Shown here piece after piece: positions 55,790 to 60,581 of a DNA stretch of 64,000 nucleotides. A program made the position numbers and the translations under genes. Origin of the DNA: Kaistella antarctica (GTDB taxonomy: Bacteria > Bacteroidota > Bacteroidia > Flavobacteriales > Weeksellaceae); assembly GCF_900109615.1 (NCBI RefSeq), contig NZ_FOIX01000001.1, positions 744,001 through 808,000 on the forward strand. Reading direction: 5' to 3'. The notes beneath the pieces are model-generated. The model was not told the origin of the DNA. It made no database searches and was given only the letters and a program-made list of their open reading frames with translations. Each line of letters begins with the position of its first letter. The first letter of the stretch is position 1.

Positions 55790-58700
55790 ATGGAATCTCA
55801 AAAATATACGCCCAAAAATAAAGTAAGAGTCGTAACCGCCGCTTCATTATTTGATGGTCACGACGCTGCAATTAATATCATGCGAAGAATGATTCAGGCA
55901 ACTGGTGCTGAAGTTATTCATCTCGGTCATGATAAATCTGCCGAAGAAGTGGTTGATTGCGCTATTCAGGAAGATGCAAATGCGATTGCCTTAACTTCTT
56001 ATCAAGGTGGTCACAACGAATATTTTAGATATATCTATGATCTGCTCCGCGAAAAAGGAGCGCCTCAAATTAAGATTTTTGGTGGTGGCGGTGGCGTAAT
56101 TCTACCAGAAGAAATTCGAGAGTTAATGGAATACGGCATCGACCGAATCTATTCGCCAGATGACGGACGTGAAATGGGGTTGCAAGGAATGATCAATGAT
56201 CTGGTTCAAAAATCTGATTTTTCCACCGGAGAACATGTTCAAGTTTCAGATTTAGACAAGATTAAATTTGAGGATTCTAAATCCATCGCAGAAGTTATTT
56301 CCGCCGTAGAAAATTTCTCTGATGAAAAACAAGATTTAATAAAAGCCATTGACGAAAAAGCAAAAGATTCCAAAATTCCAATTATCGGAATTACGGGAAC
56401 TGGTGGCGCCGGGAAATCGTCCTTAACCGATGAATTGGTTCGTCGTTTTTTACGGTCAAATCCAGATCAGAAAATCGCTATTGTTTCCGTCGATCCTAGT
56501 AAAAAGAAAACCGGTGGAGCACTTTTAGGCGATAGAATAAGAATGAATTCCATCAATGATGCGCGTGTTTATATGCGTTCGATGGCAACTCGGGAACATA
56601 ATGTTTCGGTTTCGCCTTACATTCATTCTGCTTTAAATATTTTAAAATTAGCAGAACCAAATGTGATTATTTTGGAGACTTCCGGAATCGGACAGTCGGG
56701 TTCTGAAATTACAGATATTGCAGACATTTCGATGTACGTGATGACGCCAGAATATGGCGCTTCAACCCAATTGGAAAAAATCGACATGCTGGATTTTGCC
56801 GACTTGATTGCTTTAAATAAATCAGACAAACGAGGAGCTTTAGATGCCTTGCAAGCTGTTCGGAAAACTTATCAACGAAATCACGTTGCATTTGATCAGC
56901 CTTTAGATGCGATGCCTGTTTTTGCGACCAAAGCGAGTCAGTTCAACGATTACGGAATGACGGAATTGTATAACGCATTGATTCAAAAAGTAAATGAAAA
57001 GTTTGCAGACATGAATCTTCAAGAATTTGTCGAGCAAAACGTTTCTGAAGATACCACCGTGATACCGCCAAAACGCGTTCGTTATCTTTCTGAAATTGTA
57101 GAATCGAATCACGCTTATGATAAAGAGGTGGAGCAGCAAGCACTCATCGCCAAGAGAATGTATCTTTTAGAAGGCGCTCGAGTTCTGATCACCGACGATC
57201 AACATACCGTGGATAAATTAGAAAAGGTCTTCCTTAAAACGAAGAAAGAATTGTCTGAAGAGAATATTGCTTTCTTGAAAGGATGGCATAATTTCAAAGA
57301 AGAAATGGCTGGAGATGCTTATTCTTATTTTGTTCGTGGAAAAGAAATTAAAGTAGAAACAAAATACGAATCTCTTTCTCATTTAAAAATTCCAAAACTA
57401 TCTCTACCCAAATTTCAGGATTGGGGCGATTTGCTGCGTTGGAAAGGTCAGGAAAATGTTCCTGGACAATTTCCGTACACGGCGGGTTTATTTCCTTTTA
57501 AAAGAACGGGTGAAGATCCGACCAGAATGTTCGCCGGTGAAGGTGGACCAGAAAGAACCAACCGTAGATTTCATTATGTGTCTGCAGATATGGATGCGAA
57601 AAGATTATCTACCGCTTTTGACTCGGTGACTTTATATGGTCAGGATCCTGGTTTTCCACCCGATGTTTTTGGGAAGATTGGTAATGCTGGAGTTTCAATT
57701 GCAACTTTAGATGATGCTAAAAAATTATATTCTGGTTTTGATTTGGTGAATGCCATGACTTCGGTTTCCATGACCATTAATGGACCTGCGCCAATGATCT
57801 TAGCCTTTTTCATGAATGCTGCCATTGATCAGAATGTTGAGAAATATTTAACGGAGAATAATCTTTGGGAAGCTGTTGAAGCAAAATTAAAAGCCAAGTT
57901 CGATGATCAAGGTTTGAAAAGACCAGGTTATGAAGGCGACCTTCCAAAAGGAAATAATGGTTTAGGTTTAAAATTACTAGGAATCACCGGTGACGAAGTT
58001 ATAGATGCTGAAACTTATAATAGAATTAAAGCAGAAACCATCGCGACAGTTCGTGGGACCGTTCAGGCAGACATTTTAAAAGAAGACCAAGCGCAAAACA
58101 CGTGTATTTTCTCGACTGAATTTGCGTTGAGATTAATGGGAGATGTTCAGCAATATTTCATTGACCAAAAAGTTAGAAATTTTTATTCAGTTTCTATTTC
58201 CGGATATCACATTGCAGAAGCCGGTGCAAATCCGATTTCGCAGTTGGCATTTACCTTGGCAAATGGATTCACGTATGTTGAATACTATTTGAGTCGCGGA
58301 ATGGATATCAATGATTTCGCTCCGAATTTATCCTTCTTTTTCTCGAATGGATTGGATCCGGAATATGCGGTAATCGGACGTGTTGCCCGTCGTATTTGGT
58401 CGAAAGCCATGAAGTTGAAATACCAAGCCAACGAAAGAAGTCAGATGTTGAAATACCACATTCAAACATCTGGAAGATCTTTGCACGCGCAGGAAATTGA
58501 TTTTAATGATATCAGAACAACTTTGCAAGCCTTGTATGCGATTTACGATAACTGTAACTCATTGCACACCAATGCTTATGACGAGGCAATCACCACTCCG
58601 ACTGAAGATTCAGTTCGTAGAGCCATGGCAATTCAGTTGATTATCAATAAAGAATTAGGTTTAGCGAAAAACGAAAATCCGCTGCAAGGTTCCTTTATTA

Positions 58701-59152
58701 TTGAAGAATTAACAGACTTAGTGGAAGAAGCAGTTTACACCGAATTCGACCGAATCACCGAAAGAGGCGGAGTTCTTGGTGCCATGGAAACGATGTACCA
58801 ACGATCCAAAATCCAAGAAGAAAGTATGCATTACGAAATGTTGAAACATACGGGAGAGTTTCCGATAATCGGCGTAAATACGTTCTTAGGAAAAGACGGT
58901 TCACCAACTGTTTTACCACGAGAAGTAATTCGTTCAACGGAAGAAGAAAAACAATTACAGATTCAGAATTTAGAAAACTTCCAAAAATCTCATGCTGATA
59001 AACGCGAAGAAATTTTAAATGATTTACAAATCGCCGCCATCAATCAAGAAAACCTTTTTGAAAAAATGATGGAAGCGGTGAAGTATTGTTCACTGGGACA
59101 GATTACCAATGCATTATTTGAAGTTGGTGGGATGTACAGAAGGAATATGTAA
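55790..59152 (+). CDS. icmF: Fused acyl-CoA mutase IcmF (B12-binding, G-protein chaperone and mutase)
   Basis: IcmF rearranges isobutyryl-CoA and n-butyryl-CoA (some forms isovaleryl/pivalyl-CoA) with adenosylcobalamin. The 1120 residues include a B12 domain (about 12-145) with [10 protein letters not shown] (His24 as the cobalt ligand), a MeaB-like G domain with the P-loop [20 protein letters not shown] (about 200) and LNKSD, and the mutase barrel from about 555, with [17 protein letters not shown] and [23 protein letters not shown] in place of the methylmalonyl mutase Tyr region supports IcmF. The order (B12, G, mutase) is that of IcmF, not of the mutA/mutB type. Confidence 0.93.
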
Positions 59153-59182: not shown

Positions 59183-59213
59183 ACCGTGTCAAGGTTTTAA
59201 ACCTTGACACGGT
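59183..59213. repeat. 31-base palindrome, copy 1
   Basis: ACCGTGTCAAGG and CCTTGACACGGT flank TTTTAAA, with T following, so it also acts as a terminator for icmF. It is the exact reverse complement of the copy at 59816; both are preceded by TTACCA or TACCA. Confidence 0.85.
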
Positions 59214-59230: not shown

Positions 59231-59791
59231 ATGAAAAACATTCTTTTATTCTTAAGTTTTATTCTTCTGACTTCATGTGGAGGCAGAGATGATGAACCTA
59301 CTAAGGAAACCAACTCAAGTGGTTCTTTTACAGCTAAAATCGAAGGGGTCCAAAAGTCAGTTAAAAATAATGGCAATTCACATTATGTAAAATGGAAAAA
59401 AGGCAAGGATGATCGGAATGGATCTTTTTATCAATTAAGTGTTTATGGAGCCGATGAGGGATTTTATTTCGATTATATTATTTATGACGAAAATATTCAA
59501 GTAGGTAAAGAATATATTTATCAGCATTCCAGTGATTTTGCTAATCTTCATTATGAAATTAAGTACTCTGAAACTTGTAGTGGGCCTTGCGCATCGCATT
59601 GGGGAACGTCGAATGAATTTTATGGAACGCCATCTGGCAAAATTACATTTACTTCTTTTGATGGAAAAAGGATGAGTGGAACATTAGAAGCAAAAGTTAA
59701 TCACCAATATTTTGGTATGAAAGAAGATCAAACCCGAACTATTGCAGAAGGTAAATTTGTGAATGCAGAAAAGGAATTTGGGAGTTTGTAG
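59231..59791 (+). CDS. DUF6252-like small lipoprotein
   Basis: From the ATG at 59231 the 186-residue product starts with a lipoprotein signal (MKNILLFLSFILLTSC), then GGRDDEPTKETNSSG. The rest is beta-rich (GSFTAKIEGVQKSVK at about residue 35, GKITFTSFDGKRMSGTLEAK near 145), as in DUF6252-like sandwich lipoproteins. Two Cys in ETCSGPCASH may pair or bind metal. I take the ATG with the signal peptide, not the frame opening at 59204. It lies exactly between two palindromes. Confidence 0.72.
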   Translation: MKNILLFLSFILLTSCGGRDDEPTKETNSSGSFTAKIEGVQKSVKNNGNSHYVKWKKGKDDRNGSFYQLSVYGADEGFYFDYIIYDENIQVGKEYIYQHSSDFANLHYEIKYSETCSGPCASHWGTSNEFYGTPSGKITFTSFDGKRMSGTLEAKVNHQYFGMKEDQTRTIAEGKFVNAEKEFGSL

Positions 59792-59815: not shown

Positions 59816-59846
59816 ACCGTGTCAAGGTTTAAAACCTTGACACGGT
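59816..59846. repeat. 31-base palindrome, copy 2
   Basis: ACCGTGTCAAGG and CCTTGACACGGT flank TTTAAAA, followed by a run of T. It is the exact reverse complement of the copy at 59183, and can act as a terminator for the lipoprotein gene. Confidence 0.85.
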
Positions 59847-59961
59847 TTTTTTTAGGGATTTTTTGAATGATGTTAAAATACGTTAAATCAAATAATTACC
59901 ACGATTTTCTTAAAATCATTTTTTATCTTTATTTCCTAATCTTTTAATTAAATAGAAAATT

Positions 59962-60069
59962 ATGGAAAATAATAATTGTACCTGCAACTGCGAGAGCTGC
60001 AAATCGGGTGACTGTAAAAAATGTACTTGTATCAATTGCACTTGCAAAGGTTGCACCTGTGATAAGTAA
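59962..60069 (+). CDS. Cysteine-rich metallothionein-like peptide
   Basis: A 35-residue frame (MENNNCTCNCESCKSGDCKK, then CTCINCTCKG and CTCDK, stop TAA at 60067-60069) contains 11 cysteines in CxC and CxxC spacing, with no aromatic residue. It begins with Glu/Asn and ends with Asp-Lys. This is the composition of a bacterial metallothionein, which would bind Zn, Cd or Cu through thiolates in the cytosol. It has its own terminator and a TATCTTTA near-match to the -7 box at 59924-59931, supporting it as a real gene. Family membership and the metal are inferred. Confidence 0.75.
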   Translation: MENNNCTCNCESCKSGDCKKCTCINCTCKGCTCDK

Positions 60070-60099: not shown

Positions 60100-60140
60100 T
60101 AAAACCATCAATGCTTCTAAGGTTTTGATGGTTTTTTTTT
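60100..60140 (+). terminator. Terminator after the cysteine-rich peptide gene
   Basis: AAAACCATCAA and TTTTGATGGTTTT form a long stem around a 10-base loop, ending in a T-run. Confidence 0.85.
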
Positions 60141-60182: not shown

Positions 60183-60581
60183 ATGAATATTACCTTATCA
60201 CAAGCTGAACAATTAATTTCAGCAGCAAAAGAAAAAGCAGTATCAATCGATTGCAAAATGAACATTGCTGTTGTAGATGCTGGCGCCAATCTAGTTGCCT
60301 TCGCCCGAATGGATGGCGCTTGGTTGGGCTCGTTAGACATTTCCATCAAGAAAGCAAAAACAGCCAGATTCTTCGATATGAATTCTGGTGAAATCGGAAA
60401 ACTTTCTCAACCCGGCGAATCGCTTTATAACATCGAACATTCTAACGGTGGATTAATCACTTTCCCAGGCGGAGTTTTAGTGAAAAATTCCGATGGGGAA
60501 ATTATTGGTGCAATTGGCGTAAGTGGAAACGCTGTGGAAAATGACCACGCCGTAGCAGAAGCTGGAGCAGCGGCCTTATAA
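60183..60581 (+). CDS. GlcG/HbpS-family protein
   Basis: The 132-residue product matches the GlcG/HbpS fold (DUF336), small cytosolic or exported proteins of which some bind heme or act in sensing. It has [58 protein letters not shown] and [15 protein letters not shown]. No signal peptide is visible. The length is typical. Its place after the metallothionein-like gene may be coincidental. Confidence 0.88.

Follow-up and report, generated by a model that had tools for sequence, protein, structure and literature searches.

Can a frame of 35 codons, eleven of them for cysteine, be a real gene in Kaistella antarctica, and if so, what is its product for? The question is raised by an open reading frame at positions 59962-60069 (forward strand) of a 64,000-nucleotide stretch of contig NZ_FOIX01000001.1 (the whole of this stretch is hereafter the window), which a preliminary description had presented as an unannotated metallothionein-like gene. 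To our knowledge, few bacterial lineages have yielded metallothioneins. The frame proves to be a real, conserved gene, and its partnership with a SigZ-like sigma factor, its spread in Flavobacteriaceae and the existence of a second, 14-cysteine peptide family reach beyond what the window alone shows.

A conserved gene encodes an 11-cysteine peptide

The frame opens with its own ATG at 59962, closes with a stop codon at 60067-60069 and encodes MENNNCTCNCESCKSGDCKKCTCINCTCKGCTCDK, in which 11 of 35 residues are cysteine, in the CxC (five pairs) and CxxC spacing originally described, and none is histidine or aromatic. This is the highest cysteine count among ATG-initiated ORFs of 30-80 residues in the whole window; in 60 equal-length control windows generated by an order-2 Markov model, no such ORF exceeded 8 cysteines, a value reached in 2 of the 60. 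Small and cysteine-rich with both CxC and CxxC motifs, the peptide has the size and composition of metallothioneins in the broad sense of the class.

Conservation of the cysteine pattern and frame in relatives, and an excess of synonymous substitutions, had been proposed as checks on the gene, and both were found. The peptide lies at the same locus in 8 of 36 Kaistella genomes, with seven clear orthologues (79-91% identity) besides the window's own. Across these eight sequences the pooled pN/pS is 0.12 (pN 0.076; pS 0.63, an uncorrected value near saturation), and the third codon position takes 356 of the 488 pairwise differences, indicating purifying selection on the frame.

Outside Kaistella, searching 395 genomes of the order with a profile yielded eight matches better than 1e-6 in Flavobacteriaceae, besides three in Kaistella, and in a class-wide sample of 395 genomes five matched at E <=0.01, namely four known members and one weak match (E 0.004; G912). 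A pattern scan of GTDB (84,980 species, one genome per species), which detects exact pattern matches only, recovered 107 copies of this peptide, hereafter type 1, in 106 loci. The full spacing is C-x-C-x-C-x2-C-x4-C-x2-C-x-C-x2-C-x-C-x2-C-x-C; the scan pattern forces eight of the cysteines and some neighbouring residues, and the three last, unforced columns hold cysteine in 106, 105 and 104 copies, respectively, out of the 106 in which they can be read. TGT and TGC codons are mixed in every cysteine column. For 80 of the 106 loci, the source is Kaistella, a genus of Flavobacteriaceae (a placement that we assume for the named genera other than Kaistella), or an unclassified member of Bacteroidetes, Bacteroidia, Flavobacteriales or Flavobacteriaceae.

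The window peptide matches no model in Pfam or NCBIfam, and no Pfam family was found for 18 type-1 members, in searches where the composition bias of HMMER may hide weak matches. The peptide profile matched no PDB sequence at E 1, and the plasmid and phage collections held no match to the peptide. Matches scoring below about 20 bits were set aside as too weak; the six of them that we inspected (L011, L012, L028, L029, L039 and L041) proved to be frames in or across other genes. At one locus in another genus of the window's family, L186 (also L009), two type-1 copies lie ~2 kb apart without SigZ.

The peptide gene precedes a sigma factor with a cysteine tail

A SigZ-like ECF sigma factor is encoded by the next gene on the same strand in 94 of the 106 loci, which amounts to 94 of the 98 whose sequence extends far enough; the two genes are usually 40-115 bp apart. 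In eight of the 12 remaining loci the sequence breaks off no more than 215 bases past the peptide stop codon, and the other four are three Kaistella loci and L186. The same gene also follows the peptide in eight Flavobacteriaceae loci and in L010, all of which came from profile or BLAST searches and not from the pattern scan; in L010 and its likely copy L181, from the same family as Kaistella, peptide and sigZ still lie below the gene for the fused isobutyryl-CoA mutase IcmF. Type-1 SigZ is absent from the eight Kaistella genomes, whose best ECF matches score 66-71 bits, except for one genome at 155 bits (G256).

For the two partners tested, the best NCBIfam models are those of SigZ. The L010 partner lies above the cut-off of TIGR02959 (171.3 against 168.65) and below that of NF007215 (180 against 212), while the L031 partner lies below both. 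The NF007215 cut-off was exceeded in none of the 395 genomes of the order, with a Bacillus subtilis control matching as it should.

We aligned the 88 partners scoring at least 250 bits. The six of the 94 left out comprise three in which the stretch ends within the gene (L113, L143 and L153), one with a frame change before the tail (L195, a broken gene or an assembly error) and two divergent proteins (L112 and L131), which also end in CC...CxxC. Five cysteines are conserved: a linker cysteine at position 96 and the pair at 154-155 in 88/88 partners, and those at 175 and 178 in 87/88, the sole exception (L107) being cut by the end of its stretch. The partners thus carry the C-terminal cysteine-rich extension characteristic of CorE-like sigma factors (CC in 88/88, CxxC in 87/88), with a single conserved linker cysteine and no CXC. 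An AlphaFold model predicts a helix to residue 155, a short hairpin and then the CxxC, placing the last four cysteines near or after the end of the last sigma helix (tail pLDDT 63-76, pTM 0.44).

The tail and the peptide occur together. Among 30 SigZ-like loci of the order, all 14 whose product ends in CC...CxxC have a cysteine-rich peptide gene in front, of type 1 in eight and of the second family described below (type 2) in six, and all 16 without this tail have neither. Two of these 16 loci (L071 and L077) have other cysteine-containing ORFs in front; in L071, from another family, these are small CC-rich ORFs that resemble the ends of arsenic-related proteins.

A conserved anti-sigma gene beside sigZ was considered and rejected. 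Within 1.2 kb after sigZ in 74 loci, the commonest families, named by eye, are an antisense one (29 loci), one resembling Lrp (25) and one resembling a helicase (18); no co-directional family occurs in more than 25 of the 74, and hence an anti-sigma gene in its usual place beside the sigma gene is not apparent.

The peptide-sigZ promoter motif recurs at metal exporter genes

Upstream of the pair we found a common promoter motif, TGC[A/G]TCTT-N15-GTCTA, which is present in its strict form in 91 of the 105 loci with readable upstream DNA, always in the same 23-nt phase and with GTCTA 29-34 nt 5' of the ATG in 89 of the 91. The other 14 comprise four loci without sigZ, nine with near matches by eye and one (L130) with none; the genome of the latter has, below IcmF, a site at the end of a contig (L252), which we counted as a peptide site.

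Whole genomes were scanned for the motif in 105 genomes with a type-1 pair (101 after removal of four duplicates) and in three without one. The site at the genome's own peptide was recovered in 87 of 96 genomes in two of the three scans (for G1089 it is that of L294), and a reversed-pattern control gave 6 matches in all three scans together. Away from the peptide the motif is rare, with 29 other strict sites in the 101 genomes. Ten of these precede zinc-type CDF exporter genes, five precede DUF3703 genes, one a CusA/CzcA pump gene and one a P1B ATPase gene of the Zn/Cd family; of the remaining 12, seven lie inside genes and five before genes with no evident metal-export role (by eye, two closely similar TonB receptors, a SusC-like receptor 138 nt from its site, a sterol desaturase-like and a quinone oxidoreductase-like gene). 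With 29 further sites in 101 genomes, seven of them within genes and five before genes of no evident metal-export role, many genomes have no exporter with the strict motif.

All ten CDF targets match Pfam Cation_efflux, and the one tested in NCBIfam (L238) exceeds the cut-off of the CDF model, its nearest equivalog being ZitB, below that model's own cut-off. The DUF3703 assignment is backed by a Pfam match in 5/5 targets. Of the 17 metal or DUF3703 genes, 14 have GTCTA 18-26 nt from the ATG, and the others have it at 28 (L293), 39 (L247) and 58 nt (L199). In five loci (L243, L257, L258, L261 and L264), the peptide-sigZ pair is directly preceded by a DUF3703 gene with its own TGCATCTT...GTCTA site; DUF3703 is a candidate metal-response protein. 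Our literature searches found no open-licence paper on DUF3703, none joining the SigZ sigma factor to Flavobacteria and none joining metallothionein, Flavobacteriaceae and small protein, which does not in itself show absence in print.

In the relatives, the peptide gene thus appears to share its promoter type with genes for Zn/Cd exporters, which would fit metal-linked regulation and supports the metallothionein-like reading of the preliminary description; this link is not seen in Kaistella, and the window's own genome has one strict site, located inside a gene.

A second, 14-cysteine peptide accompanies another SigZ branch

Type-2 peptides have about 37-41 residues with 14 invariant cysteines and precede another branch of SigZ. 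The type-2 loci (L079, L080, L082-L085, L285, L287 and L290-L292) mostly lie before a SigZ-like gene. A promoter of the form TGTATC-N17-GTCT was found in the same phase in all seven loci compared (GTCTA in six) and in L287; two loci from another class (L290 and L292) have a looser AATCCTTT...ATCTA only, and no type-2 promoter was seen upstream of L291. Among 321 genomes of the phylum, seven carry type 2, four of them new and three of these in another class. By eye, a SigZ-like gene comes next in three of the four new loci, L291 being the one without, and the partner in L290 ends in CxxxCC instead of CxxC. No Pfam or NCBIfam family was found for seven type-2 members, with the possibility that HMMER composition bias masked weak matches. 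One Kaistella genome (G256) has both an orphan type-1 gene and a complete type-2 pair.

In Kaistella the peptide gene stands alone

In the window, the near-consensus -7 box of the preliminary description corresponds to TATCTTTA at 59924-59931 (forward strand), which resembles the type used by the Bacteroidota primary sigma factor (consensus TAnnTTTG). The box can be aligned across the eight Kaistella upstream regions, as TAYCTTTA in six and as TACATTTA in two. Further upstream, 72-90 bases 5' of the start codon, a direct repeat GTTAA-N5-GTTAAATCA (59872-59890, forward strand) has invariant letters in 8/8 upstream regions and may be a regulator site. It is almost unique to the peptide promoter, with 10 matches across the eight Kaistella genomes, of which eight are at the peptide. 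As a regulon marker it gave nothing: neither extra site is at a metal gene, one lying within a gene (L277) and the other 5' of a gene with a secreted-looking product (L284). Promoter-motif and repeat scans found no direct tie between the Kaistella peptide promoter and metal genes.

The terminator also holds. Downstream of the gene, a hairpin at 60101-60135 (forward strand) runs into a T run, with a folding energy of -14.2 kcal/mol (z -5.8); it is missing from the consensus-scan listing and is formed by both relatives that we folded. With the box on its 5' side and this hairpin on its 3' side, the peptide gene looks like a one-gene unit in Kaistella.

We regard the genes flanking this unit as genomic context, with IcmF marking the ancestral locus. 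Upstream lies the IcmF gene (55790-59152, forward strand; NF045497, 1738 bits), separated from the peptide by one ORF (59231-59791) with a below-cut-off match to NF052634, and downstream an HbpS/GlcG-like gene (60183-60581, forward strand; PF03928, 7.6e-40), which is present in 10 of 36 Kaistella genomes. IcmF is upstream in all eight Kaistella peptide loci and HbpS downstream in seven (G281 is without it). We rejected HbpS/GlcG as a functional partner, having found it in two Kaistella only among the 106 loci, and also IcmF, a common neighbour of unrelated chemistry. In 52 of the 106 loci an IcmF gene on the same strand ends no more than 1.5 kb before the peptide gene, and the Kaistella arrangement is therefore most readily explained as this same ancestral locus, now lacking sigZ. 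The window also has, at 59185-59211 and 59818-59844, two copies of one inverted repeat, each with a T run behind it (CGTGTCAAGGTTTNAAACCTTGACACG), where none is expected by chance; similar elements, repeated and of terminator-type appearance, precede the peptide in several Kaistella relatives.

A model for the peptide and its sigma factor

A conserved gene whose relatives stand before a cysteine-tailed sigma factor apparently tied to Zn/Cd pumps most likely encodes a miniature metal-trapping protein, and with thiols but no histidine, and a promoter motif common with Zn/Cd-type exporters, metal buffering would be the most economical role. We regard it as probable, from sequence and genomic context, that the type-1 peptide represents a new family of metallothioneins and that, ancestrally, it served as effector in a module built on a metal-sensing sigma factor of the CorE-like kind.

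We propose that the peptide is cytoplasmic and that its 11 thiolates enclose ions of the Zn(II) or Cd(II) type in a purely thiolate cluster, buffering toxic excess; the choice of metals is suggested by the exporter families, whose substrates overlap. In the ancestral state, the peptide gene and then sigZ would form a two-gene operon. The sigma factor would probably bind metal through its linker cysteine and CC...CxxC tail, become active and transcribe its own operon, along with metal exporter genes, from TGC[A/G]TCTT-N15-GTCTA promoters, after which the peptide would take up metal and damp the response. By analogy, SigZ-like proteins would sense metal as CorE does, with the peptide closing the loop. 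In Kaistella, the sigma factor and its promoter would have been lost from the locus, leaving the peptide alone with a terminator, a primary-type promoter and the conserved upstream repeat. More tentatively, we suggest an undescribed metal-response module of Bacteroidota, in which a Zn/Cd-sensing, cysteine-tailed sigma factor may be paired with one of two miniature metallothionein families acting both as effector and as off-switch, retaking metal from the sigma tail, with the peptide set free in some lineages, including Kaistella. Against the main reading stand the small number of strict sites at exporter genes, the missing tie to metal genes in Kaistella, further copies without SigZ (L186 for type 1 and L291 for type 2), the CxxxCC ending of the L290 partner and the modest confidence of the modelled sigma tail.

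The strongest alternative, which we consider unlikely, is that the peptide chiefly regulates SigZ, as a metal relay or an anti-sigma factor acting on the cysteine tail, with storage as a secondary role. It would explain why nothing neighbours this SigZ group as constantly as the peptide does, with no co-directional gene after sigZ found in more than 25 of the 74 loci, and why each of two SigZ branches has its own, divergent peptide family. However, CorE-like sigma factors are described as acting through their own tail (PMC8999054). Moreover, the peptide persists in Kaistella, where it is under purifying selection, and in L186, in both cases with no type-1 SigZ, and the first position in the operon suits an abundant product.

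Considerably less probable is a thiol redox buffer or a role in arsenic or electrophile stress rather than in Zn/Cd handling. Thiol-rich peptides do react with oxidants and arsenite, and one type-2 locus (L084) has upstream a transporter of the SBF family, which includes the arsenite exporter ACR3; the transport genes that share the promoter, however, encode CDF, CzcA and Zn/Cd-type P1B ATPase proteins, and no peroxidase, thioredoxin or ars gene is among the 22 sites before genes. A spurious ORF, as the short length and the missing family match might suggest, is refuted by conservation, given the pN/pS of 0.12, the 107 copies, the common locus, the promoter-like box and the terminator.

If the preferred reading of a metallothionein serving a metal-sensing sigma factor is true, two metallothionein families would be added in Bacteroidota, and the SigZ-like sigma factors of this phylum would gain a predicted trigger, promoter and regulon. 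It makes testable whether a sigma factor of Bacteroidota senses zinc without an anti-sigma factor, and also how many genes of 30-40 residues escape gene callers and family libraries.

Comparison with known systems

The mammalian metallothionein alpha domain has eleven cysteines, and the fungal Cu-metallothioneins are short and CxC-rich; like the window peptide, both offer pure thiolate ligands, a likeness that concerns composition. With SmtA/BmtA and the Pseudomonas-type metallothioneins, all of which are longer, the peptide has in common that it is small, cysteine-rich and likely a cytoplasmic metal buffer. Histidine and hydrophobic residues are often present in bacterial metallothioneins, and SmtA adopts a zinc-finger fold (PMC10612145); the window peptide, in contrast, lacks histidine and matches no Pfam family.

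On the side of the sigma factor, SigZ of B. subtilis (NF007215, TIGR02959) is the best family match of the partner, whose scores straddle or miss the curated cut-offs. A proposed functional likeness is to CorE and CorE2 of Myxococcus xanthus (ECF238, formerly ECF44), which have a C-terminal cysteine-rich extension, linker cysteines and metal-handling targets (PMC3107203, PMC8999054). The 38-residue, six-cysteine tail of CorE is required for its response to copper (PMC3107203), and CorE2 responds to Cd and Zn (PMC8999054); the word metallothionein is absent from the latter review. Compared with CorE, the partner described here has one linker cysteine instead of CXC, a CC...CxxC tail with four cysteines instead of six, and a metallothionein-like partner gene.
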